Positions 1,813 to 13,221 of a DNA stretch of 20,279 bases are shown here, piece by piece. Position 1 is the first letter of the stretch. Every line of letters starts with the position of its first letter. The notes beneath the pieces were generated by a model. It was not told where the DNA came from. It saw only the letters and a list, made by a program, of their open reading frames with translations, and searched no databases. A program made the position numbers and the translations under genes. The stretch lies in IMG/VR virus record IMGVR_UViG_3300044613_001936, positions 1-20,279 of that record; one strand, given 5' to 3'. Source of the stretch: a virus.

Positions 1813-1840
1813 TTGACATCTTTATATGATGTATTATATT
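1813..1840 (+). promoter_or_regulatory. sigma70-like promoter for the glycan cassette
   Basis: TTGACA (1813-1818), a 16-bp spacer and TATATT (1835-1840) form a strong host-type promoter. The first cassette gene begins at 1855, with GAGG at 1847-1850 as a possible ribosome-binding site, so the leader would be under 10 nt. Confidence 0.65.
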
Positions 1841-1854
1841 TAATATGAGGTCTT

Positions 1855-2490
1855 ATGATTATTGATTTACGAGAAATTCCTGTTGTCTGGATTAATTTAG
1901 ATTCTGCTACAAAAAATGCAGAAACGATGAAATCACGATTTGAAAAATATGGGTTTAAAAATACCCATAGAAAACCTGGTTTAATTATTCCACCACCACC
2001 AAATACAAATCCAAGTATAGCACATTTTAGAGGTTGTGGCCAAGCTCATGTAGATATTTTGGAAGATGAAAGATACTCAACTCCTCTTTTAATTTTAGAA
2101 GATGATATTGAGTTTGTTGAAAATTTTAATCCAGTAATTGAGATCCCAGATGACTCAGATGGAGTATATCTGGGCATTTCTCATGGTAATGTTCATTATC
2201 AAACATGCAAAAAAGACGACAATCATTTAAGAATTGCTGGTATTCTTGGTGCTCATGCTATTTTGTATGTCACTGATGTTTATCGTAAAAATATGGCAAA
2301 TGCGGGAAAACATTGTTTATATAGAATGGATATGCCATGGGATCTTGGTACAGCCGGCATTCAACAACAATTTAAAGTATATACTCCAAATAATCCGCTG
2401 ATGTACCAATCCAATGACAGAGAAAATGCAAATAAATGGCAAACTTTGACCGATAGGCCTTTGGAAAATAGAAACAATTTAAATTTATGA
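1855..2490 (+). CDS. GT25-like glycosyltransferase
   Basis: A 211-residue soluble protein of the LPS-type GT25 glycosyltransferase family, which transfers sugars from nucleotide-sugar donors in lipooligosaccharide synthesis. It opens with VWINLDSATKNAETM (11-25), matching the N-terminal strand-loop of GT25 enzymes. GCGQAHVDILE (60-70) corresponds to their conserved helix before the active site, and LILEDDIEF (79-87) carries the acidic ED(D) cluster taken to bind the metal and donor. It is somewhat shorter than many GT25 enzymes and has no signal peptide or membrane segment. It is the first gene of the cassette, 14 bp after a TATATT -10 box, and its stop overlaps the next start (ATGA). Donor and acceptor cannot be read from the sequence. 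Confidence 0.85.
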   Translation: MIIDLREIPVVWINLDSATKNAETMKSRFEKYGFKNTHRKPGLIIPPPPNTNPSIAHFRGCGQAHVDILEDERYSTPLLILEDDIEFVENFNPVIEIPDDSDGVYLGISHGNVHYQTCKKDDNHLRIAGILGAHAILYVTDVYRKNMANAGKHCLYRMDMPWDLGTAGIQQQFKVYTPNNPLMYQSNDRENANKWQTLTDRPLENRNNLNL

Positions 2491-3275
2491 TTACATATAA
2501 TAATCTAGGTGCATATGGCCGAATGGGAAACCAAATGTTTCAATATGCAACATTGTTTGCTATTGCTAAAACAAGAAAATACAAATTTGGTATTCCACTT
2601 AAAAATAAATCTGATAACCCTTATTTAAATCTTTGTCTAGATAAAGCCTTCCCACATTTAAGTGCAGAAGATAGTAGCACAGTTATTAATCTTCATAGAG
2701 CACAAGAAAGAAATTTTGAGTATAATGCTGGGATATTTGGTATTCCAGATAATACAGATATCCTTGGTTATTTTCAAAGTGAAAAATACTTTGTAGATTA
2801 TAGAAATAATCTTTTAAAAGAGTTTACTTTTAATGAAGAAGTATATAGAAAAGCATTGGACATTAGAAGCATTACAAAAGAACCTGTAATATCTGTTCAT
2901 CTTAGACTAGGTGATTATAAAAAATTATCTGATAAGCACCCAGTTTGCACACTAGAGTACTATAAAGAAGCTTTAAGCAAACTTCCAGAAGATTTACTTA
3001 TTGTTGCATTTAGCGATGAGCCAGATTTAGCAAAAAGTTTATTTGATTCATTAGAAAGAAAGTATTTTATTACTGAATCAAATGATCAAAATGTTGATAT
3101 GTGCGCCATGACTTTGTGTGATTATCATATTATAGCAAATAGCAGTTTTAGTTGGTGGGGAGCATGGCTTGGAGAAAGTAAAAAAGTAATCGCTCCAAGC
3201 AAATGGTTTGGAGATGCCCCAGGAATGCCCAGAAATTGGTCAGATATTTATTGTAAAAATTGGATGATTATATAA
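2487..3275 (+). CDS. GT11-family glycosyltransferase (alpha-1,2-fucosyltransferase-like)
   Basis: The 262-residue protein has the full GT11 signature: GRMGNQMFQYA (11-21), GYFQSEKYF (94-102), the donor-binding SVHLRLGDY (136-144) and ANSSFSWWGAWLG (217-229). Family members transfer L-fucose from GDP-fucose to form alpha-1,2 links. The usual HxRRxD donor motif reads HLRLGD here: the first Arg is kept and the second is Leu, which may alter donor preference. The start overlaps the upstream stop by 4 bp (ATGA), implying translational coupling. No membrane segment is seen. A GDP-mannose 3,5-epimerase is encoded two genes downstream, so GDP-L-galactose is a possible donor; this is inference. Confidence 0.92.
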   Translation: MITYNNLGAYGRMGNQMFQYATLFAIAKTRKYKFGIPLKNKSDNPYLNLCLDKAFPHLSAEDSSTVINLHRAQERNFEYNAGIFGIPDNTDILGYFQSEKYFVDYRNNLLKEFTFNEEVYRKALDIRSITKEPVISVHLRLGDYKKLSDKHPVCTLEYYKEALSKLPEDLLIVAFSDEPDLAKSLFDSLERKYFITESNDQNVDMCAMTLCDYHIIANSSFSWWGAWLGESKKVIAPSKWFGDAPGMPRNWSDIYCKNWMII

Positions 3276-3895
3276 TGTTATTTGATATTACCACATATAT
3301 TAAGAAACCTATAACTGGAATTATTCAAATCGGTGCACACCACGGAAATGAATATGATACATTAAAAAAAATGTCTGAAAACATTTTAATGTTTGAACCA
3401 CAAAAACAAGTATATGAAAAACTTTTTAATAAATTGGGTTCTATTCCTACCCTTATTATTGAAAATAAAGCACTAGGTTCGTCTAGTGGAATTATGAAAA
3501 TGTATACCGAACAAGCAAATGGAGGACAATCCAGTTCTCTTTTAATTCCTCAGTTGCATTGTATACAATATCCAGGTATAAAATTTAATGGAATTGAAGA
3601 AGTTGAAGTTATAACATTAAATGAATATTTTACGAATAAATCATTTAATTACAATCTAATAACATTAGATGTTCAAGGTTATGAATTAGAAGTATTAAAA
3701 GGTTCCTCTAACTTATTATTAAATGTTGATTACATTTTATGTGAAGTTAATAGAGCAGAGTTGTACAAAGATTGCCCAATGGTAGAAGAGATTGATAACT
3801 TTTTAAATCAATACGGATTTGTAAGAGAAGTTACATCATGGGATGGACAAACATGGGGTGATGCTCTATATGTGCGTGCATTTATAAAAACATGA
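3275..3895 (+). CDS. FkbM-family SAM-dependent methyltransferase
   Basis: FkbM-type O-methyltransferases commonly methylate hydroxyls of sugars or polyketides. The SAM-binding loop GIIQIGAHHG (15-24), MFEPQKQVY (39-47) and the family signature LDVQGYELEVLKG (131-143) are all visible. I choose ATG at 3275, which overlaps the preceding TAA by one base (TAATG), giving 206 residues. A longer reading from TTG at 3260 adds only five residues that overlap the fucosyltransferase gene. No transmembrane segment is seen. Lying between GT11 and GT10 genes, it probably O-methylates a sugar of the glycan made by the cassette; the position methylated is unknown. Confidence 0.88.
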   Translation: MLFDITTYIKKPITGIIQIGAHHGNEYDTLKKMSENILMFEPQKQVYEKLFNKLGSIPTLIIENKALGSSSGIMKMYTEQANGGQSSSLLIPQLHCIQYPGIKFNGIEEVEVITLNEYFTNKSFNYNLITLDVQGYELEVLKGSSNLLLNVDYILCEVNRAELYKDCPMVEEIDNFLNQYGFVREVTSWDGQTWGDALYVRAFIKT

Positions 3896-4716
3896 CTATA
3901 AAATATATTTCAGCTTTTGGAAGTCCATTTTCTCATGACGTTTCATCATGTCATAATATACCACCTAAAAATTTTAAATGGATATTTAACGAGAAATCTT
4001 TATCTGATATAGAGGTCTATATGGATTATGATGTTTTAGGTGGCTGCAATAGTAATAGTAAAAATAAATTTTTATGGTTATGTGAATCTAGAGGTATAAC
4101 TCCAGAACAAACTAATTTTTTAAAAAACAATTATAATTTTTTAAAACAAGTTTATAAAAAAATATTTGTGCATGATTATGATCTTTTAAAATTAGGTGAT
4201 TCTTGTGTTTATTGTCCACCAGCTGCAAATTCAACGTGGGTAGTTGATAGGCAAATATATAAAAAATCAAAAATGATTTCTATGGTATCGTCTGGTAAAA
4301 CTTTTTGCTCTGGACATAAATACCGCAATAAAAAGATGAATGATTTTAAGCAAACAAATTATCCTATTGATTATTATGGAAGATCTTTTAATCCATTTAA
4401 AGTAAAAGAAGATGTTTTGCGTGATTATTATTTTTCTATAACAATAGAAAATGAAAGTTATTCAAACTATTATACTGAAAAATTAATGGATTGTTTTGCT
4501 ACTGGTACTATACCAATTTATCATGGTACACCGGAAATCGATACTATGTTTAATATGGATGGTATCATTGTATTGAATGACACATTCGATATAAATACAT
4601 TGTCTAGTGATTTATATTTTTCAAAGATGGACGCAATAAAAGACAATTTTGAAAGATGCATAAATCACCAGAGTGCTGATGATTTTATTTTTGATCGTAT
4701 AAAGGAATTAATATGA
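3892..4716 (+). CDS. GT10-family glycosyltransferase (alpha-1,3-fucosyltransferase-like)
   Basis: The 274-residue protein has the diagnostic GT10 block around residues 180-213: YFSITIENESY, then YYTEKLMDCFATG and TIPIYHGTPEI. This is the GDP-fucose-binding motif of alpha-1,3/1,4-fucosyltransferases. Upstream, KMISMVSSGKTFCSGHKYRN (127-146) fits the conserved Ser-Lys...Gly-His...Arg region. No N-terminal membrane anchor is present, unlike the eukaryotic enzymes. The start overlaps the FkbM stop (ATGA), and the stop overlaps the next start in the same way. GT10 enzymes use GDP-L-fucose but can tolerate GDP-L-galactose, the predicted product of the adjacent epimerase. Family is secure; donor and acceptor are not. 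Confidence 0.92.
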   Translation: MTIKYISAFGSPFSHDVSSCHNIPPKNFKWIFNEKSLSDIEVYMDYDVLGGCNSNSKNKFLWLCESRGITPEQTNFLKNNYNFLKQVYKKIFVHDYDLLKLGDSCVYCPPAANSTWVVDRQIYKKSKMISMVSSGKTFCSGHKYRNKKMNDFKQTNYPIDYYGRSFNPFKVKEDVLRDYYFSITIENESYSNYYTEKLMDCFATGTIPIYHGTPEIDTMFNMDGIIVLNDTFDINTLSSDLYFSKMDAIKDNFERCINHQSADDFIFDRIKELI

Positions 4717-5699
4717 AAAAAGCTTTAGTATTAGGTGCAGGTGGATTTATTGGCGGACATTTAGTAACACGTTTAAAATCTGAAGGATATTGGGTTCGTG
4801 GTGTTGATATTAAAGAACATGAATACAAAAAAACAGATGCTGATGAATTTTTTGTAATGGATTTGCGTGATCCATTAAATGTACATAAAGCTTTAGAAAC
4901 GGATGATGTTCTCAAAACATTTGATGAAATATATCAATTGGCTGCGGACATGGGTGGAGCAGGATATATTTTTACTGGTGAGCACGATGCCGATGTCATG
5001 CATAATTCTGCATTAATTAATTTGAATGTTGCACACGAAGCAGTAAAATATTTAAATATGCCTAAAATTTTCTATTCTTCATCGGCATGCATGTATCCAG
5101 AATACAATCAAATGGATCCAGATAATCCAAAATGTTCTGAGGATTCGGCATATCCTGCTGCCCCAGATAGTGAGTATGGATGGGAAAAACTTTTTAGTGA
5201 AAGACTTTATCTTTCTTATTACAGGAATTATGGTTTAGAAGTTAGAATTGGTAGATTCCATAACATTTATGGACCATATGGTTCATGGAATAATGGAAAA
5301 GAAAAAGCGCCAGCAGCGATCTGCAGAAAAGTTGCAGAATGTTCTGAGGGTGGTGTGATTGATATATGGGGTGATGGCAAGCAAACCAGATCATTTCTCT
5401 ATATTGATGAATGTTTAACCGCTGTTAGAAAATTAATGGAATCAGACTTTACTGGGCCAGTTAACATTGGCTCCGAAGAAATGATTAGCATCAATGGGTT
5501 AGCTAATATGGTTATTCAAATTTCTGAAAAAAACATTTCAATAAACAATATACCGGGTCCAATTGGAGTACGTGGAAGAAATTCTGACAATACTTTGATA
5601 CAAGAAAAGCTTAATTGGAAACCTTCTGAACCTCTACATGATGGTATAACAAAAACATATTTATGGATAACAAATCAAGTATGCGGAATGAACGTATAA
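4713..5699 (+). CDS. GDP-mannose 3,5-epimerase-like NAD-dependent sugar epimerase
   Basis: A 328-residue extended short-chain dehydrogenase/epimerase that closely resembles plant GDP-mannose 3,5-epimerase, which converts GDP-D-mannose to GDP-L-galactose. The NAD-binding GAGGFIG is at 8-14. LAADMGGAGYI (77-87), SSACMYPE (123-130, with the Cys taken as the acid/base), YGWEK (155-159, the Tyr/Lys pair), RIGRFHNIYGPYG (178-190), GKEKAPAA (195-202, second catalytic Lys), WGDGKQTRSF (219-228) and GVRGRNSDN (285-293) all match positions characteristic of that enzyme rather than of generic UDP-sugar epimerases. AAAGGA at 4701-4706 is a good ribosome-binding site, and the start overlaps the GT10 stop (ATGA). 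No gmd or fcl gene for GDP-fucose is present in the window. Confidence 0.9.
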   Translation: MKKALVLGAGGFIGGHLVTRLKSEGYWVRGVDIKEHEYKKTDADEFFVMDLRDPLNVHKALETDDVLKTFDEIYQLAADMGGAGYIFTGEHDADVMHNSALINLNVAHEAVKYLNMPKIFYSSSACMYPEYNQMDPDNPKCSEDSAYPAAPDSEYGWEKLFSERLYLSYYRNYGLEVRIGRFHNIYGPYGSWNNGKEKAPAAICRKVAECSEGGVIDIWGDGKQTRSFLYIDECLTAVRKLMESDFTGPVNIGSEEMISINGLANMVIQISEKNISINNIPGPIGVRGRNSDNTLIQEKLNWKPSEPLHDGITKTYLWITNQVCGMNV

Positions 5700-6445
5700 T
5701 ATTTGCATGTGCGGTAAGAAATTGTGAACAATATTTGGATGCTGTTTGTTCAAATATTTTTAATTTGGGATCACTATTTAAAGAATACAAAATTATTTTT
5801 GTAGAATCCGATTCTTCAGATAGAACTATTGAAATTTTAAAATATTTTCAAAGTTTAAATTCAAATATTGAAATTATTTCTTTAGGTAATTTAGAAAAAG
5901 ATTACCCAGCCCGAACTGACAGAATTTCAATAGCACGAAATTGCTATCTCGATTTAGTTGAATTTAAATATGCAGATTATGATTTGCTTTGTATGTTTGA
6001 TGCAGATGATAGGTCTTCATATAAAATAGATCCAGAATGTTTTTTATCAAATTTTAATTATAGTGAATGGGACATGATGTGTGCAAATCAAGAACAAAGA
6101 TATTACGATTTGTGGGCACTTCGTCACGAATACTGGATGCCATTTGATCTTATAAAACATATAAATCTAGATAGGCCGGCTTTTATCACTCATAGTGATG
6201 CAAATAATATGTTCTCACATGCAAGAAGAATTCATATTGCCAAATATCATTTACCAATAAAAGTCGAATCAGCATTTGGTGGTATGGGTATTGTAAAAAT
6301 CAAATCAATAAAAAATGCGAGACACACTGGAAGAGATGAAACTGGTCTTCCTTGGTGTGAATGGGTTCCGTTTTGCAGGAAGTTAAATAATGGTGAAGCT
6401 AGTATTTTTATCAATCCAAATTTTATAAATGGAATCGGTGACTAA
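5681..6445 (+). CDS. CAP59/GT69-like glycosyltransferase
   Basis: From ATG at 5681 this gives 254 residues; an upstream in-frame ATG at 5663 adds six and overlaps the epimerase further. FACAVRNCEQYL (8-19), FVESDSSDRTIEIL (40-53), ARTDRISIARN (77-87) and the DXD-like FDADDR (106-111) resemble the CAP59/GT69 group of GT-A alpha-mannosyltransferase-like proteins (the 'ESxSxDxT...R..R.A..RN' pattern). Later conserved-looking elements include HSDANNMFSH and ESAFGGMGI, typical of sugar-binding loops in this group. The protein is soluble. It lies directly after the epimerase and could supply a mannose-type or L-galactose linkage; the donor is not established. Confidence 0.72.
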   Translation: MRNERIIFACAVRNCEQYLDAVCSNIFNLGSLFKEYKIIFVESDSSDRTIEILKYFQSLNSNIEIISLGNLEKDYPARTDRISIARNCYLDLVEFKYADYDLLCMFDADDRSSYKIDPECFLSNFNYSEWDMMCANQEQRYYDLWALRHEYWMPFDLIKHINLDRPAFITHSDANNMFSHARRIHIAKYHLPIKVESAFGGMGIVKIKSIKNARHTGRDETGLPWCEWVPFCRKLNNGEASIFINPNFINGIGD

Positions 6446-7242
6446 TGGAAAATAAGATACCAAGAGTGGCATTTACAATTATATTAAATGGTTTACACCA
6501 TTTGATTCATAAAGATTATTACAAATTTATAATTGATAACTTTGACTTATGGGTCATAGCAGAAGGTGCTGTTCATAGTAATGGCAGCACTTCTTGGTGC
6601 AAACCTATGCCGGATGAATACCATAATAATGGTAGAAGCAAAGACGGCACATATGAATTTTTGTTAAATCTTGCAAACAATCCAAAAGTAAAAGTCTTAA
6701 CACATAATGGATTGTGGCATTCCAAAGATCATCAAGTAAATGCTTGTATTGATACAATAAAAAAACAATATAATGAAGCATTTTTATGGCAAATAGATTG
6801 TGATGAACAATGGCAACTTGTAGACATACAAGAAGCTGAGAAAATAATGATTCAGCATGATCTAGACTGTGCTTCATTTCCATGCAAATCTTGGATAGGA
6901 AAAAATATATTAGCTACTGGTGAGTGGGGTGAATGCATCAATAGTGGATATACACGGTTGTGGAAATGGAAAGGACAATCCTTTCAAAAGCACGAACCAC
7001 CATTATTAGAAGGTGGAAATGGAAAACAAGCTGTAGTATCCATATATTTTGATCATTACAATTATTACTTTGAGCAAGATGTTGAATTTAAAGAAAAATG
7101 GTACAACCATCATCTGGGAATTCATAAAAATTGGAAACTATTGCAAAACAAACCAAAAGAAGAATTTCCAGTCGGTATAGATCATCTATTTGATTTTGGT
7201 TGGAATAGAATGACAAAAACAAAACTTTTTTATGTGGGTTAA
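6445..7242 (+). CDS. GT-A-fold glycosyltransferase, family uncertain
   Basis: A 265-residue soluble protein. VAFTIILNG (8-16) is followed by DLWVIAEGA (34-42), SKDGTYEFLLN (65-75), a WHSKDHQVNAC segment (91-101) and LWQIDCDEQW (114-123). The order (N-terminal beta strand, a short acidic turn, a 'DGT' loop, then a DXD motif as D-C-D) is that of GT-A glycosyltransferases acting on nucleotide sugars. The later part is rich in Trp, Tyr and His, as in acceptor-binding loops. The start overlaps the previous TAA by one base (TAATG). I do not recognise a specific CAZy family. A role in the same glycan pathway is inferred from position. Confidence 0.65.
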   Translation: MENKIPRVAFTIILNGLHHLIHKDYYKFIIDNFDLWVIAEGAVHSNGSTSWCKPMPDEYHNNGRSKDGTYEFLLNLANNPKVKVLTHNGLWHSKDHQVNACIDTIKKQYNEAFLWQIDCDEQWQLVDIQEAEKIMIQHDLDCASFPCKSWIGKNILATGEWGECINSGYTRLWKWKGQSFQKHEPPLLEGGNGKQAVVSIYFDHYNYYFEQDVEFKEKWYNHHLGIHKNWKLLQNKPKEEFPVGIDHLFDFGWNRMTKTKLFYVG

Positions 7243-7244
7243 AC

Positions 7245-7853
7245 ATGTTAAATACTGATAAAATATTTTTATTAAATTATAAACCTCTTACAAAACGCCT
7301 AGATCATTTAATTAAAGAATTTGAAAAAAATAAATTAATAAATCAAGTGGAAATTATACAAGATGAGCCAGATTACGATACAATAAATGATTTATTTTAT
7401 ACGAAATACATGACCCCACAAGAAATTTCATTGGCTTATAAACACTATATTGCTCTAAACAAAGCTAAAAATTTAAATTCTTGTGTTATATTTGAAGATG
7501 ATGTTATTTTTAATGATAATTGGATTAATAATTTTAATAATTGGATAGATGATACTCCAAAAGATTGGGATTGTATTTTTTTTGGTTCTGGTTTAGATAT
7601 GACTATTAAAAACTACAGCCATGGAATTCATGTTTATAAAAAAGAACACCCATCCACACGTTGTACAGATTCCATAATTTTTTCAAATAAAGGAATAAAT
7701 AAAATATTATCCAATCTAATACCAATTAAAAAACCAATAGATCATCACTTTAATGACAATTTTTATTTAAATAATTTGAATGTTTATTGGTGGGAACCTG
7801 GATTGTGTAAACAAGGATCTCAAAAAGGAATATATGAGTCAGCAATCAGATAA
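7245..7853 (+). CDS. GT25-like glycosyltransferase, second copy
   Basis: A 202-residue GT25-type protein, only distantly similar to the one at 1855. It starts with IFLLNYKPLTKRLDHL (7-22), the usual 'INL...R...' strand. ISLAYKHYIALNKAKN (61-76) is the conserved helix before the acidic motif, and VIFEDDVIF (81-89) carries the catalytic acidic cluster. CIFFGSGLD follows where GT25 enzymes have their next strand, and an IDHHFND segment resembles the distal 'D..L' site. No membrane segment is seen. Two bases separate it from the preceding stop, and its 3' end overlaps the next gene by 20 bp. Sugar specificity is unknown. Confidence 0.78.
   Translation: MLNTDKIFLLNYKPLTKRLDHLIKEFEKNKLINQVEIIQDEPDYDTINDLFYTKYMTPQEISLAYKHYIALNKAKNLNSCVIFEDDVIFNDNWINNFNNWIDDTPKDWDCIFFGSGLDMTIKNYSHGIHVYKKEHPSTRCTDSIIFSNKGINKILSNLIPIKKPIDHHFNDNFYLNNLNVYWWEPGLCKQGSQKGIYESAIR
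7825..7829 (+). promoter_or_regulatory. ribosome-binding site that decides the start at 7834
   Basis: AAGGA lies 4 bp upstream of ATG 7834, inside the end of the preceding gene. The longer reading from ATG 7780 has no comparable site and would overlap the upstream gene by over 70 bp. Confidence 0.7.
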
Positions 7854-8667
7854 AAAAGATATTATTGTTAGTGGATTTAGTAATTTTGGAATTAAACAGT
7901 TGACACCTTGGTTAAACAGTATTGATCAGTGTGGTTTTACAGGAGATATTTTATGTGTAATGTACGGTTCTAACCCGGATATGGTAGAAGCTAAAAAATA
8001 TTTAAAAACTAAATCAAATTTTATAATAATTGATGGTATTTTAACAAAAACAGTTGTATGCGATAGATTTAAAGATATATATTTGTTTTTAAAAGATAAA
8101 AAAGAACAGTATAGATATGTTTTTAGTACAGATGCATCGGACGTAATCTTTCAATTAAATCCAAGTCATTTTGCAGAAATTAAATTAGTAAATGGCTTTA
8201 AATTATTATGTGGATCTGAATCAATTTTATACAAAAATGAAACTTGGGGAAACCAAAATATGAAAAATAGTTTTCCCAGTTTTTATGATTTTATGATGGA
8301 CAAGCTTGTATACAATGCAGGTACAATAACTGGAAACGTAGAAGCAATATGTGACCTATTTAAAAACATTTATGAAATGTCTATAAATACAATAGTAGAA
8401 AATCCAGATCAAGCTGCATATAATATATTAATACAAACAAAATATAAAGATATTTGTTATTTTTCAGGAATAGAAGATTGTTATGCAACTCAATGTAATA
8501 CAACTGGTAATCCAAGATTGTTGTCCCAATATGGACATTTATTAACAGAACGCCCTATTTTTAAAAATGGCATTGCATATAATTCAAAGATGGAAAAAAC
8601 TTGTTTATTGCACCAATACCAAAATATACCTGGTTTTTATGAAGAGGTTTTAAAATTATATGCGTAA
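7834..8667 (+). CDS. probable GT-A glycosyltransferase with a DxxDV motif
   Basis: The 277-residue reading from ATG 7834 is preferred because of its AAGGA ribosome-binding site. It begins MSQQSDKKDIIVSGFSNF. The block YVFSTDASDVIFQLNP (95-110) has the D-x-x-D-V-x-F-Q-x-x-P pattern seen in several families of nucleotide-sugar transferases, where the Asp residues bind the metal and sugar nucleotide. VYNAGTITGN and NPDQAAYNIL further on resemble the 'NAG..G' and 'D Q' acceptor/donor motifs of the same enzymes. No membrane segment is present. It overlaps the upstream gene by 20 bp and the next by 8 bp, so translation is likely coupled. Exact family, donor and acceptor are not identifiable by eye. 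Confidence 0.68.
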   Translation: MSQQSDKKDIIVSGFSNFGIKQLTPWLNSIDQCGFTGDILCVMYGSNPDMVEAKKYLKTKSNFIIIDGILTKTVVCDRFKDIYLFLKDKKEQYRYVFSTDASDVIFQLNPSHFAEIKLVNGFKLLCGSESILYKNETWGNQNMKNSFPSFYDFMMDKLVYNAGTITGNVEAICDLFKNIYEMSINTIVENPDQAAYNILIQTKYKDICYFSGIEDCYATQCNTTGNPRLLSQYGHLLTERPIFKNGIAYNSKMEKTCLLHQYQNIPGFYEEVLKLYA

Positions 8668-9271
8668 TGTTATTTTTTATACAAGTCACAGACAATTGGA
8701 AGAAATTTATTATTCTGCGCAATTTTTTAATAAAAGTGATTATTTAAAAAATAATTTTGAAGTTATATTGCATTGCAATAATCCAAATCATTCTATGCAG
8801 CAATTAAAAGAAAAAGCAATATTTGAAACAAAAACAAATATAATTTTAACTTCTAAAAATTCTGGATATAATTTTGGAGCATTTGAAGCATTATCAGATA
8901 ATTTTGAACTTTTTAAAAATTATGATAATGTTATACATACACACCCAGATTGTCAAATTGTAGATTCAAATAAACTAGAATTGCTTTTGCCAAGTATAAA
9001 TGATATTGCTGTTTCTACTTTTTATCATTTACAAAAAAATTGTTATAATTGTGATTTTTTTATATTTAAACCAAAATTTAATTATTTTAAAGATTGGAAC
9101 CTAGCATCTACACATGTTGCAGAACATTGGTTTTATGATTTGGTGACTAATTTAAATTTACATGTTTGTTATTTGGATAGATATTCAGATAATATTGCAC
9201 ACAATAATATTGATAATTTTGGTATATGGCACAATCATAATATTTCTCAATTGGCACACTATTTAAAATAA
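8660..9271 (+). CDS. small GT-A-like glycosyltransferase, family uncertain
   Basis: A 203-residue soluble protein. FEVILHCNNPN (33-43) and SKNSGYNFGAFEAL (65-78) match the 'N.G.n.Ga..al' loop of GT2-like enzymes, and NVIHTHPDCQI (90-100) sits where the DXD motif should be, with HPD as the acidic position. The second half has many His and Trp residues but no known motif I can name. It overlaps the previous gene by 8 bp (the start ATG precedes the upstream TAA). It is the last gene before a 44-bp gap with its own promoter, so it may end the first transcriptional block of the cassette. Function is inferred from fold-level motifs and context. Confidence 0.6.
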   Translation: MRNVIFYTSHRQLEEIYYSAQFFNKSDYLKNNFEVILHCNNPNHSMQQLKEKAIFETKTNIILTSKNSGYNFGAFEALSDNFELFKNYDNVIHTHPDCQIVDSNKLELLLPSINDIAVSTFYHLQKNCYNCDFFIFKPKFNYFKDWNLASTHVAEHWFYDLVTNLNLHVCYLDRYSDNIAHNNIDNFGIWHNHNISQLAHYLK

Positions 9272-9281
9272 CATTTTTTGA

Positions 9282-9309
9282 TTGCTTATTTTAATTATTA
9301 ATACATAAT
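9282..9309 (+). promoter_or_regulatory. promoter-like element before the radical SAM gene
   Basis: TTGCTT (9282-9287), 16 bp, then CATAAT (9304-9309), with the ATG 6 bp later. The boxes are weaker than at genes 55 and the 50-residue ORF, but spacer and distance to the start codon are identical. It occupies the only sizeable gap within the cassette (9272-9315). Confidence 0.45.
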
Positions 9310-9315
9310 ATAACC

Positions 9316-10452
9316 ATGAATTTAGTAAACATAACACACCAAAACATACCACTTACTTCTTTAATACAAGAAGAGGCAACACCAAACGATAAAGTTGAAG
9401 GAAAAAGTTTTAGTAGCAATACAACAAAACTTTTAAAACATTTGGATAAATTGCAAAGAATCCAAGATGGTAAATCACCATCCCCAGTAATGGCCCACAT
9501 TTCATTAATAAATGCGTGCAATTTAACTTGTTCCTTTTGCTGTTTTGCTAATAGAGATATGGGTGACATGATACCCACTAATAAAGTAAAACAAGCATTA
9601 GATTCATTTAAAAAAATAGGTGTTACAGGTATTGAATTTACCGGTGGTGGCGAACCAACACTGCACCCTGATTTTGAAGAAATAGTCAATTATGCATATT
9701 CTTTAGGATTTAAACTGGGAATCTGCACAAATGGTGCCAGACTTGGAAAAGATAGAAAAATAAAACAAGATGTAATTAAACTATTTTCTTGGGTTAGACT
9801 CGGCATGTATGGTTTTTATGAAGGATATGATTATGATCTCTCAGTATATGAGAACATAGAGACTAAGCCTTCTGCAGCTTATGTATGGGATGAAAACCTA
9901 GAAACATCTGAAAATCCAAATATTACTGGAAAATGGTCAGACCCAAGTAAAAAAAGATTAAGTAAAAAATTTCAAAATAGAGAAAATTTTATACGAATGT
10001 TGGATTGGGTAGAGGAAAACAAAATACCTTGCAGAATTGCTTTTAATGCAATTAAAAATGTAAAGGAAACTGAAAAAGATATTGAAACCATTCGTGGTAT
10101 AATAAAAGAATATGAAGACAATAGAGGAAAGCCTTTAAAATATGCTTTCTTGTCAGATTTTAACTTTAAAGGAGTTAGAAAAAATAATCATTGTTATATG
10201 CACATGGTAAAACCATTTCTTTTTACTGATGGTTATATATATGTTTGTCCATCAGCTGAATTGTCTTTAGAAAATAATTATAATTATGTTCCAGAATCAC
10301 AATTTAAAGTATGTGATATTGATGGAATTGAAGAGTTTTACAGCAAGCCTGCCACAGTTAGACACCATGCATGTCATTATTGCAAATATGCAATGCAAAA
10401 TGAATTGATAGATGATATTTTAACACAAACAGAACACAATGAATTTGCATAA
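9316..10452 (+). CDS. radical SAM enzyme with C-terminal Cys-rich (SPASM/twitch-like) region
   Basis: A 378-residue radical SAM protein. Residues 68-75 hold the Cys-x3-Cys-x2-Cys motif (C68, C72, C75) that ligates the 4Fe-4S cluster and S-adenosylmethionine. FTGGGEPTLHPDF (108-120) is the conserved GGEP SAM-binding segment, and ICTNGARLG corresponds to the strand that follows. The C-terminal part has further cysteines (HCYMHM, YVCPSAE, VCDIDG, ACHYCKYAM) typical of SPASM or twitch domains binding auxiliary clusters. Such enzymes modify peptides or small molecules, including sugars (epimerisation, dehydration, methylthiolation); the substrate here is unknown. There is no obvious precursor peptide next to it. 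It has its own promoter-like element and no clear ribosome-binding site. Confidence 0.88.
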   Translation: MNLVNITHQNIPLTSLIQEEATPNDKVEGKSFSSNTTKLLKHLDKLQRIQDGKSPSPVMAHISLINACNLTCSFCCFANRDMGDMIPTNKVKQALDSFKKIGVTGIEFTGGGEPTLHPDFEEIVNYAYSLGFKLGICTNGARLGKDRKIKQDVIKLFSWVRLGMYGFYEGYDYDLSVYENIETKPSAAYVWDENLETSENPNITGKWSDPSKKRLSKKFQNRENFIRMLDWVEENKIPCRIAFNAIKNVKETEKDIETIRGIIKEYEDNRGKPLKYAFLSDFNFKGVRKNNHCYMHMVKPFLFTDGYIYVCPSAELSLENNYNYVPESQFKVCDIDGIEEFYSKPATVRHHACHYCKYAMQNELIDDILTQTEHNEFA

Positions 10453-10461
10453 GAATAAATT

Positions 10462-11049
10462 ATGAAGAATATATTTTTAGATTGCGGAACACACTTTGGT
10501 CAAGGATTGAATCATTTTTTTAAAAAATTTAATATGAATAATTCTTGGCACATTGAATCATATGAAGCCAATCCAATAACATATAAAATTCATGAACCTA
10601 ATAGAGAATATGAATTTGTACAATATAAAAACATTGCTTTAAATACATATGATGGTATAGTAGAATTTAATATAGAAGATCCCGCACACCCACACGAACC
10701 TGATACGGGTATGGGATCTTCTATAATTACATTAGATAAGTGGAATCCACAAGAAGGAAGATTAAAATTTAAAAAACAAATTAAAGTAGATTGTATTAAT
10801 TTTTCAAATTATATAAAAACAAATTTTAATAAAAATGATTATATTGTTTGTAAAATGGATATAGAAGGTGCTGAATATAATATTTTAAAACAAATGATAG
10901 ATGACAATACACTAGATTATATCGATGAGCTTTTTGTAGAATTTCATGCATCGTATTTTAATAATAAACAAGAAATGTTACAAATAGAAAATAATATTAA
11001 AAATAAAATTTATAATAACACTAAAACAATATTACACAATTGGGGATAA
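10462..11049 (+). CDS. FkbM-family SAM-dependent methyltransferase, second copy
   Basis: The 195-residue product starts with the SAM-binding loop IFLDCGTHFGQGL (4-16). SYEANP (33-38) corresponds to the acidic residue binding the SAM ribose, and YIVCKMDIEGAEYNIL (127-142) is the FkbM signature. It differs clearly from the FkbM protein at 3275, so the two probably methylate different positions. No membrane segment is seen. It starts 9 bp after the radical SAM gene; the short spacer AAGAATAAATT resembles that before the gene at 11661 and lacks a strong ribosome-binding site. A sugar hydroxyl as substrate is inferred from context. Confidence 0.85.
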   Translation: MKNIFLDCGTHFGQGLNHFFKKFNMNNSWHIESYEANPITYKIHEPNREYEFVQYKNIALNTYDGIVEFNIEDPAHPHEPDTGMGSSIITLDKWNPQEGRLKFKKQIKVDCINFSNYIKTNFNKNDYIVCKMDIEGAEYNILKQMIDDNTLDYIDELFVEFHASYFNNKQEMLQIENNIKNKIYNNTKTILHNWG

Positions 11050-11051
11050 TT

Positions 11052-11657
11052 ATGATTGAAACTAAATTTAATAAAGACTATTATGAAGACGGTGTTAGAA
11101 AACACATATCTGGATATGAAAATTATAGATGGATGCCAGAAAGATCTATACCAGAAGCATTAGATATAAAAAATAATTTTAAATTTAATACTTGTGTAGA
11201 TTACGGGTGCGCCAAAGGATTTTTAGTTAGCGCTCTCAGGCTAATGGGGTGTGAAGCATATGGGGAAGACATTAGCGAATATGCACTGACAAACTGTAAA
11301 GAAGATGTTAAAAATTATCTTGGATATCCAAATGATAAAAAATATGATCTTTTAATATGCAAAGATGTTTTGGAACATGTAATAGAATCCGATTTACCAA
11401 AATTATTAGATAATTTATATCAAAAAGCCGATGAATTTTTTTTTGTAATTCCACTTGGAGATGAAAATAGATTCAGAATTAGAGAATATGAAATCGATGT
11501 AACACATGTAACAAAAAAAGATGAAGAATGGTGGATTAAATTATTTAATGCACATGGATTTAAATTAATTAATTTTTCTTATTCTTTTGGTGCTGTTAAA
11601 GAAAAGTGGATAATACAGTATCCTTATGGTAATGGATTTTTTAAATTTAAAAAATAA
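11052..11657 (+). CDS. class I SAM-dependent methyltransferase
   Basis: From ATG 11052 the product has 201 residues; GGGGA at 11042-11046 gives a plausible ribosome-binding site, and an upstream TTG at 11040 would only add four residues overlapping the previous gene. CVDYGCAKGFLVSALRLMG (48-66) is SAM motif I, AYGEDISEYAL (69-79) supplies the acidic motif II residue, and YDLLICKDVLEHV (98-110) is the 'DvlEH' motif of Methyltransf_11/23-type enzymes. These act on small molecules, quinones or sugars. The product is soluble. It sits between a FkbM methyltransferase and a GT-B glycosyltransferase, so sugar methylation is likely but not shown. Confidence 0.85.
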   Translation: MIETKFNKDYYEDGVRKHISGYENYRWMPERSIPEALDIKNNFKFNTCVDYGCAKGFLVSALRLMGCEAYGEDISEYALTNCKEDVKNYLGYPNDKKYDLLICKDVLEHVIESDLPKLLDNLYQKADEFFFVIPLGDENRFRIREYEIDVTHVTKKDEEWWIKLFNAHGFKLINFSYSFGAVKEKWIIQYPYGNGFFKFKK

Positions 11658-11660
11658 ATT

Positions 11661-12536
11661 ATGAAAATTGCTTTTGTATATCCATATAAAGTTGAAACCG
11701 AATGGGGTACCCCATCATCAATAAAAAGTGCTTTTAAAAAATTGGGACATGAAACAGTTTTATATAAATTAGATCCTCATAATTGCAATTTATCAGAATT
11801 GATAGATCATTCTGCAAATTATGATTTTGTTGTGGCTTTTTATGCCGGTCATTCACCATCATTCGATAATGAATTAAAAAAATTATTTGATTGTAATAAA
11901 ACTAAAATATTATTAGAACTTGGAGATGAACCCCAGACTATGATGGGTGGGTGCAATAAAAATAGAATAAATGCAGCTCATCTTATTTTTACTCCAGATT
12001 ATAGATGTCATGAATATTATAAACAGAATAATTACAATTCAGTATGGTTGACACATTGGTGTGATGAAGATGTATTTTATTATGACCCAACTATATTAAC
12101 TTGTAATAAAATAATAACAACTTGTGGTCACCGACCTTGTGTACCAGAATTAGAAAATACATTTAAACATAATTTTGTAAATAAAAGAATTGAAGAACAT
12201 GACAACACTAGTTTTTACAATTCTGGTTCTGTGGTGTTTCAATTTGCAAGATTTGATGAAATAACCAGAAGAATAATGGAAGGTGGTGGCTGCAAAAAAG
12301 CAGTTCTAGTAAATAGAATATCACCTGAAACAAAAATGTATGATTTATTTGTAGAAGATGAAGATATTTGTTATTATTCTTCGGTAGAAGAATGTATTGA
12401 AAAAGCTCAAAAACTATTAAATGATGATGAGTACCGAAATAAATTAGCAAATAATATTTACAAAAAAGTCACTGAAAATCATTTAGCAATACATAGAGCA
12501 AAAAGTTTAATTGAAGAATACAATAAACTATTATGA
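11661..12536 (+). CDS. GT-B glycosyltransferase, CgeB / group 1-like
   Basis: A 291-residue protein. KIAFVYPYKVETEWGTPSSI (2-21) is the N-terminal Rossmann start, and ILLELGDEPQ (83-92) and HLIFTPDYRCHEYY (107-120) follow as in CgeB-type proteins. The C-terminal half has EITRRIMEGGGCKKAVLV (200-217) and EDICYYSSVEECIEKAQKLL, the typical Glyco_trans_1_2 / CgeB nucleotide-sugar-binding pattern (a conserved Glu, small residues, then the 'y.s..el..k...ll.d...r..ia' tail). It is shorter than classic GT4 enzymes. It begins 3 bp after the methyltransferase, and its TGA overlaps the ATG of a truncated ORF. It is the last intact gene of the cassette. Confidence 0.78.
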   Translation: MKIAFVYPYKVETEWGTPSSIKSAFKKLGHETVLYKLDPHNCNLSELIDHSANYDFVVAFYAGHSPSFDNELKKLFDCNKTKILLELGDEPQTMMGGCNKNRINAAHLIFTPDYRCHEYYKQNNYNSVWLTHWCDEDVFYYDPTILTCNKIITTCGHRPCVPELENTFKHNFVNKRIEEHDNTSFYNSGSVVFQFARFDEITRRIMEGGGCKKAVLVNRISPETKMYDLFVEDEDICYYSSVEECIEKAQKLLNDDEYRNKLANNIYKKVTENHLAIHRAKSLIEEYNKLL

Positions 12537-12634
12537 TAATAGTACATCATAGCGGTAGATTAGGCAATACACTGCTACAAGATATTGGAGCAAGCATTTT
12601 ATCCAAATATTATGTTTTATTAGTTGACAATTGA
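12533..12634 (+). pseudogene. truncated GT11-like glycosyltransferase remnant
   Basis: A 33-residue ORF overlaps the previous stop (ATGA) and starts like a GT11 enzyme: MIIVHHSGRLGNTLLQDIGA, compare GRMGNQMFQYA in the intact GT11 at 2487. It ends in a stop after LLVDN, within the promoter of gene 55, whereas GT11 enzymes run to about 260-300 residues. I read it as the 5' stump of a cassette gene whose remainder was lost when the cassette was joined to gene 55. A functional micro-peptide is possible but less likely. Confidence 0.6.
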
Positions 12635-12651
12635 TATATTAGTATTATAAT
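12624..12651 (+). promoter_or_regulatory. consensus sigma70-type promoter of gene 55
   Basis: TTGACA (12624-12629), a 16-bp spacer and TATAAT (12646-12651) are both perfect consensus boxes. The GTG start of gene 55 follows 6 bp later, so the predicted start site falls on or next to the initiation codon and the mRNA would be leaderless. Confidence 0.85.
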
Positions 12652-12657
12652 AATAAA

Positions 12658-13221
12658 GTGAAAAAGAAAAGAAAAAAGAAAGCAGCATCGGATGCCGATT
12701 ACGTAAGTAACCAAGATCTCTTAGATGCATTAATAGAATATAAAAAGAAAAAAGATGATTCAGAAAATGCTGGTCGTAAAAAACCAAAACTTCCTGATTT
12801 TATTGGCGAGTGCATTCTTAAGATTGCATCTCGCCTTTCTTATCGTCCAAATTTTGCCAATTATCCATACAGAGAAGAAATGGTATCTGATGCGGTATTA
12901 AACTGCATAACATATATTGATAACTTTGATCCAGCAAAGTCCAGCAGCCCTTTCGGTTATCTAACCCAAATCTGCTGGTTTTCTTTTGTACGTATAATCA
13001 ATAAAGAAAAGCGGGAAAAGTACACGCAATACAAGTACGCAGAACAGCAAAATGATAAAGACTTTCATAATTGGTTTAATGAAACGTATGCGGGCATTGA
13101 TATAGGTCGTAGAGATTTTTTTGGCCTTACTGATCTTGATATGCAAAGATTTGACGAGATGCTTACACCAAAGAAAGGCAAAAGAACTCGTAAATCTAAA
13201 AAGACAGGATTGGATGTATGA
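12658..13221 (+). CDS. 55: gp55-type sigma factor for late transcription
   Basis: The T4-type late sigma factor directs host RNA polymerase to TATAAATA-like late promoters. The 187-residue product matches T4 gp55 (185) in order: YVSNQDLLDALIEYK (15-29) near the N terminus, a LKIASRLSYRPNFANY segment (54-69), EEMVSDAVLNCITYIDNFDP (73-92, sigma region 2-like) and FGYLTQICWFSFVRIINKEKRE (99-120). The start is GTG; the frame is closed by a TAG five codons upstream of it and no ATG is nearby, so the N terminus is a run of Lys/Arg. The T4 C-terminal clamp-binding tail (DFLYE type) is not evident; the protein ends in a basic segment instead. Its stop overlaps gene 47 (ATGA). Confidence 0.92.
   Translation: MKKKRKKKAASDADYVSNQDLLDALIEYKKKKDDSENAGRKKPKLPDFIGECILKIASRLSYRPNFANYPYREEMVSDAVLNCITYIDNFDPAKSSSPFGYLTQICWFSFVRIINKEKREKYTQYKYAEQQNDKDFHNWFNETYAGIDIGRRDFFGLTDLDMQRFDEMLTPKKGKRTRKSKKTGLDV

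Follow-up and report, generated by a model that had tools for sequence, protein, structure and literature searches.

A predicted twitch-type radical SAM enzyme and its methyltransferase partner in the sugar cassette of a T4-like phage

What is a radical SAM enzyme doing among the sugar genes of a phage? The DNA analysed here, positions 1 to 20,279 of the virus record IMGVR_UViG_3300044613_001936 (20,279 nucleotides, henceforth the window), belongs to a T4-like phage, as seen from a UvsW-like helicase and a late sigma factor; recombination, clamp and clamp-loader genes were also recognised from their translations, the clamp loader being nearest, at about 52%, to those of pelagi-, methylophilales- and cyanophages. 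The original prediction placed the enzyme in a phage sugar cassette, and a glycosyltransferase cassette does enclose its gene. Besides glycosyltransferases, this cassette holds an NAD-dependent epimerase/dehydratase and methyltransferases of the FkbM type and of class I. The features discussed here are:

1813-1840, plus strand: sigma-70-like promoter at the cassette head (11/12 match)
1855-12536, plus strand: tightly packed sugar cassette with GT11, GT10, GT25, GT2 and other glycosyltransferases
8660-9271, plus strand: upstream gene of 203 aa without a match in Pfam; resembles a glycosyltransferase, by eye only
9316-10452, plus strand: twitch-type radical SAM enzyme gene, open reading frame from ATG, 378 aa (PF04055; AlphaFold2)
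9517-9540, plus strand: CX3CX2C motif (C68/C72/C75) for the radical SAM [4Fe-4S] cluster, invariant in 65 of 65 relatives
10192-10383, plus strand: twitch ligands C293-x12-G306-x4-C311 ... C353-x2-C356 for one predicted auxiliary Fe-S cluster, from conservation in 65 relatives
10462-11049, plus strand: FkbM-type methyltransferase between the pair (PF05050, 4.7e-15)
11052-11657, plus strand: class I SAM-dependent methyltransferase, the constant partner (Methyltransf_23), from ATG 11052; the mechanical open frame starts at TTG 11040
12624-12651, plus strand: perfect sigma-70 consensus promoter after the cassette, TTGACA-16-TATAAT (12/12)

A promoter of its own, dividing the cassette into two blocks, had also been attributed to the gene, and this view had to be given up. 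The only gap of more than 10 nt inside the cassette, the 44 nt before 9316, contains no promoter-like site matching at 9 or more of 12 positions, and the only plus-strand sites with at least 11 of 12 flank the cassette, ahead of it at 1813-1840 and behind it at 12624-12651 (two seen, 0.755 expected per strand). The latter directly precedes the late sigma factor gene at 12658, with 0.02 sites of 12/12 expected per strand. Promoter-like sites in the region number 75 against 80.9 expected, and the T4 late promoter TATAAATA is found at chance frequency (4 against 4.1 expected).

The radical SAM core and the twitch domain

Pfam matches residues 62-147 to the radical SAM core (PF04055, E=4.4e-13, 50.2 bits against a cut-off of 29.5). 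With a CX3CX2C motif inside a core scoring above the family cut-off, the product of 9316-10452 is a member of the radical SAM superfamily, as originally predicted, and core and cysteines together predict the reductive cleavage of SAM by a [4Fe-4S] cluster. Comparison with the nearest relative gives a dN of 0.12 and a dS of about 2.4, the latter near saturation, so the gene is conserved far beyond chance.

The full SPASM motif comprises seven cysteines, CX9-15GX4C-gap-CX2CX5CX3C-gap-C (PMC6231123). The C-x12-G-x4-C ... C-x2-C spacing of the window enzyme matches its first part, and the CX5CX3C...C part is absent. Thus, we assign to the enzyme not a seven-cysteine SPASM but a twitch domain, a shortened SPASM whose cysteines suffice for only one auxiliary cluster, the cluster itself being predicted. 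C293, C311, C353 and C356 are invariant in all 65 aligned relatives, even as identity among these drops to about 20%, and G306 is found in 64 of them. The cysteine-rich C-terminus of the original prediction is thereby borne out, its plural auxiliary clusters are not, as four ligands fit one. C333, present in 63/65, is not strictly required; speculatively, its role might be to donate a hydrogen, or no more than a structural one.

An AlphaFold2 model built on 36 aligned relatives (pLDDT 84.4, pTM 0.85), in which residues 1-28 are disordered, led Foldseek to the twitch/SPASM enzymes SuiB, DesII, SkfB, CteB, BlsE, SpeY and BtrN. The superpositions are poor, with TM-scores no higher than the 0.58 of DesII, and the E-values of the peptide maturases SuiB, SkfB and CteB equal or surpass those of the sugar and aminocyclitol enzymes; Foldseek backs the general class of the enzyme only. 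BtrN and SpeY share the combination of radical SAM core and twitch domain, and the auxiliary cluster of BtrN is ligated by four cysteines (PMC6231123, PMC9012708), as predicted here. However, the window enzyme is only 11-13% identical to these two, superposes poorly on them, stands in no antibiotic pathway and has a constant methyltransferase partner. DesII, BlsE and NeoN conduct radical chemistry on sugars, which we propose likewise for the window enzyme from its context and fold similarity, BlsE matching in the core; their gene neighbourhoods are different, though, and NeoN was compared via the literature only. SuiB, SkfB and CteB also carry a C-terminal auxiliary-cluster domain behind the radical SAM core, but the window enzyme has four instead of seven motif cysteines, no RRE-like domain and no precursor.

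A constant methyltransferase partner

The product of 11052-11657 is a class I methyltransferase by its Rossmann-type domain (Methyltransf_23, 4.8e-11, 43.1 bits against a Pfam cut-off of 27) and its SAM-binding glycine motif, GCAKG, which is invariant in 65/65 apart from neighbours. In each of the 43 viral loci analysed, the same family lies 3' of the radical SAM gene, in direct succession except for one intervening open reading frame in the window and in loci L015 and L026. The FkbM methyltransferase is interposed in the window and L015 only, which places it outside the core module. In bacterial and archaeal genomes, a scan with the radical SAM protein alone as query, and hence without the pairing built in, yielded 80 loci, 22 of them with a radical SAM gene above 150 bits and 58 below 125 bits. 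When an evident phage contig (L059) and two loci at contig ends (L080, L092) are set aside, 19 assessable bacterial loci remain in the former group, and in all of them the methyltransferase lies no more than 1.3 kb from the radical SAM gene; in the distant group the count is 0 of 58. L059 is binned as a Saprospiraceae bacterium and carries the phage-type cassette at 78% identity, and is almost certainly a misbinned phage contig.

In the reverse search, 25 of 25 viral methyltransferase matches adjoin a radical SAM gene, that of L155 sitting on another piece of the same contig (L024). The distance matrices of the two families correlate with r=0.876, the largest permuted value being 0.14; with distant pairs alone the correlation is weaker (r=0.44). 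The open frames of the pair commonly overlap, by about 6-40 nt, and overlapping gene starts, such as the 17 nt in L065, suggest coupled translation. L065, a Selenomonadaceae locus, is also the smallest case, in which a GT2 gene, the radical SAM gene and the methyltransferase gene stand between recJ-like and relA-like genes, the last two assigned by eye. The central result is a two-gene module reaching beyond 9316-10452; the original prediction, made for that gene, missed the partner. As all close relatives examined, from viruses and bacteria alike, carry the two together, they probably catalyse consecutive steps of an unusual sugar modification.

How widely is this pair distributed? Among 50,697 phage records, tblastn found relatives aligning across 80% or more of the length in two isolated phages only, Synechococcus phage SynMITS9220M01 (80% identity to the window enzyme) and Pelagibacter phage HTVC008M (23%, two records), and a search with the methyltransferase returned the same two at full length. 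Both loci contain the same pair as the window, with the radical SAM gene annotated as 'hypothetical protein'. IMG/VR adds 31 loci of the SynMITS9220M01 type and 24 of the HTVC008M type. The 19 bacterial loci are labelled Elusimicrobiota, Nealsonbacteria, Wolfebacteria, KSB1, Planctomycetota, Pseudomonadota, Myxococcota, Actinomycetota and Bacillota. One of the labels looks wrong: L082 is called Leptolyngbya sp. PLA1 and groups tightly in the tree with L081 of the Phycisphaerales (Planctomycetota). The tree has two deep clades, that of the window with Nealsonbacteria and an Elusimicrobiales genome, that of HTVC008M with Planctomycetota, Bacillota and others. Since both include phages, phages acquired the pair at least twice. 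Around L065 and L088 the centre genome was the sole carrier among the whole genomes sampled (1/300 and 1/398), so the module is rare in bacteria; such patchy, rare carriage is typical of accessory surface-polysaccharide genes.

The HTVC008M form differs from the window enzyme by an additional domain at its N-terminus. This beta-rich domain makes up the first ~100 residues of such long forms, occurs in pelagiphages as well as bacteria (L003, other HTVC008M-type loci, L085, L086, L088, L089 and L064) and gave no significant PDB match with Foldseek or phmmer.

Both clades show a glycan context, the neighbours including a carbamoyltransferase, a DegT aminotransferase, an NAD-dependent epimerase/dehydratase, a cytidylyltransferase, GT2 and, in pelagiphages and in L086 of the Planctomycetota, a UDP-glucose dehydrogenase. 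Heptose enzymes are also among the neighbours; no single sugar-nucleotide enzyme is constant beside the pair. Directly upstream of the radical SAM gene stands, depending on the locus, a GT2, a DUF3431 or a gene of no assigned family; the upstream gene of the window, 8660-9271, has a homologue at the same place in L004. In L060, a 735-kb Elusimicrobiales contig, the neighbour families are those of the phage cassettes (DUF3431, radical SAM, methyltransferase, glycosyltransferases), and its genome has 18 radical SAM matches. In SynMITS9220M01 (L002, 11714-14233), a 'hypothetical protein' of 839 aa appears to fuse a glycosyltransferase, with weak Glyco_transf_4 and Glycos_transf_1 matches, to a carbamoyltransferase.

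Substrate, competing readings and a possible mechanism

The best-supported reading of 9316-10452 is a sugar-acting twitch radical SAM enzyme, given the recurrent glycan neighbourhoods in phages and bacteria, the lack of a peptide precursor and the non-RRE N-terminal domain of the long forms. That it forms with the methyltransferase at 11052-11657 a two-step module acting on a surface-glycan sugar is a proposal to which we give about even credence. As the original prediction did with its unusual sugar or modified acceptor, we infer the sugar substrate, the type of reaction, the order of the steps and the biological role, a change of the host surface during infection.

Could the substrate be a peptide instead? 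Many SPASM/twitch enzymes act on peptides (PMC9012708), and the peptide maturase SuiB has the best Foldseek E-values, followed by SkfB and CteB, so the enzyme might mature a surface protein, or a peptide encoded at a distance or missed in annotation, with the methyltransferase capping the product. We consider this unlikely, as the partners of the radical SAM gene are glycan genes and as neither of the hallmarks of a RiPP maturase, a nearby precursor and an RRE (RiPP recognition element) or equivalent, was found in 33 representative loci and the long-form domain. Near the radical SAM gene these loci have no conserved small open reading frame, only frames overlapping known genes, and the gaps flanking 9316-10452 measure 44 and 9 nt, in agreement with the original observation that no precursor peptide is adjacent. 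The extra domain is missing from the window protein, and its beta-rich form in the long relatives is unlike the RRE fold (described in PMC6231123).

Neighbouring glycan genes are no proof that the sugar itself is the target of the pair. The variety of glycosyltransferases beside it suggests a common substrate or decoration, and instead of a sugar ring this may be the lipid carrier or a non-sugar group on the glycan, such as phosphoglycerol or a choline-like substituent. In L070, a nucleotidyltransferase adjoins kinase-like and EamA-like genes (both by eye) in a resemblance to a phosphocholine locus, and L062 carries a cytidylyltransferase. However, other loci do not share these neighbours, and the cytidylyltransferase may equally be a heptose enzyme, making a non-sugar target improbable as well.

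We see a rather small chance that the two enzymes have separate jobs and are linked only since cassettes move as blocks. Sequence does separate them in L062, L026, L015, L076 and the window, and their order is reversed in L085, but other cassette genes turn over freely, whereas the pair persists across both deep clades and roughly nine bacterial phyla, with reciprocal linkage complete in viruses.

That the enzyme is a viperin-like antiviral or nucleotide-modifying enzyme is hardly credible: prokaryotic viperin is the top NCBIfam match (4.8e-14) and the PADLOC pVip models match at 1.1e-16, but the former reaches 52.2 bits against a cut-off of 180 over residues 64-161 only, the latter stops at residue 162, and beyond this part lies an invariant auxiliary-cluster domain, which viperins are not known to possess, in addition to the methyltransferase partner. 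A pVip score of 1e-16 obtained via the core alone means that automated defence annotation could miscall such non-viperin radical SAM genes.

Searches of Pfam, NCBIfam, PHROGs and PDB sequences recognised the radical core alone, with no equivalog at its cut-off, and Pfam, NCBIfam, PHROGs and PADLOC hold no specific model for the family. The NCBIfam matches cover just this common core. The anaerobic ribonucleotide reductase activases, clustering with which was originally named as counting against the prediction, score 36.4 bits (NrdG2; curated cut-off 131.15), so that this objection falls away; MoaA scores 44 bits (cut-off 284) and the BlsE family 35.5 bits (cut-off 400); the curated cut-offs of known peptide maturase families are not reached either, and a QueE-like reading was dropped on the score and extent of the match. 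Within this radical SAM subfamily, function cannot be predicted from similarity networks (PMC6231123), so the network initially proposed as a check would not settle the reaction.

How might a sugar-modifying pair operate? The radical SAM cluster would cleave SAM, and the resulting 5'-deoxyadenosyl radical would abstract a hydrogen from a carbon of the sugar, which may be nucleotide-linked or already part of the glycan. The auxiliary cluster, with its predicted four-cysteine ligation, would then probably accept the substrate electron in a dehydrogenation, as proposed for that of BtrN (PMC9012708); alternatively, the substrate radical could be re-reduced, resulting in epimerisation. By analogy with BtrN, the enzyme thus probably oxidises or inverts a sugar carbon, although a BtrN-like two-electron oxidation of a hydroxyl-bearing carbon is suggested by similarity in fold and cysteines only. 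The partner methyltransferase would methylate the product, and neighbouring glycosyltransferases would insert the modified residue into the surface glycan of the infected cell.

Antibiotic pathways supply most of the radical SAM enzymes whose sugar substrates have been characterised. In the literature searched, radical SAM genes of phage or O-antigen cassettes receive only passing mention, for example in a paper on pelagimyophages (PMC7029224), whose host-recognition cluster has such cassettes beside LPS genes. That paper assigns them to no family and names neither a partner nor a function, and we liken these cassettes to the window pair by description only. Nowhere in the papers searched did we find this family described, nor the twitch type of its enzyme, nor the pairing with a methyltransferase. 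Tentatively, and with somewhat less than even confidence, we propose an unrecognised module that makes a radical-derived, methylated surface-glycan sugar by chemistry new to O-antigens and capsules, that is carried patchily by bacteria, and that marine T4-like phages captured at least twice for remodelling the surface of the infected cell. A methyltransferase-tied module in surface-glycan loci, common to phages and distant bacteria, points to undescribed carbohydrate chemistry and is relevant to the question of what marine phages need sugar cassettes for in the first place.
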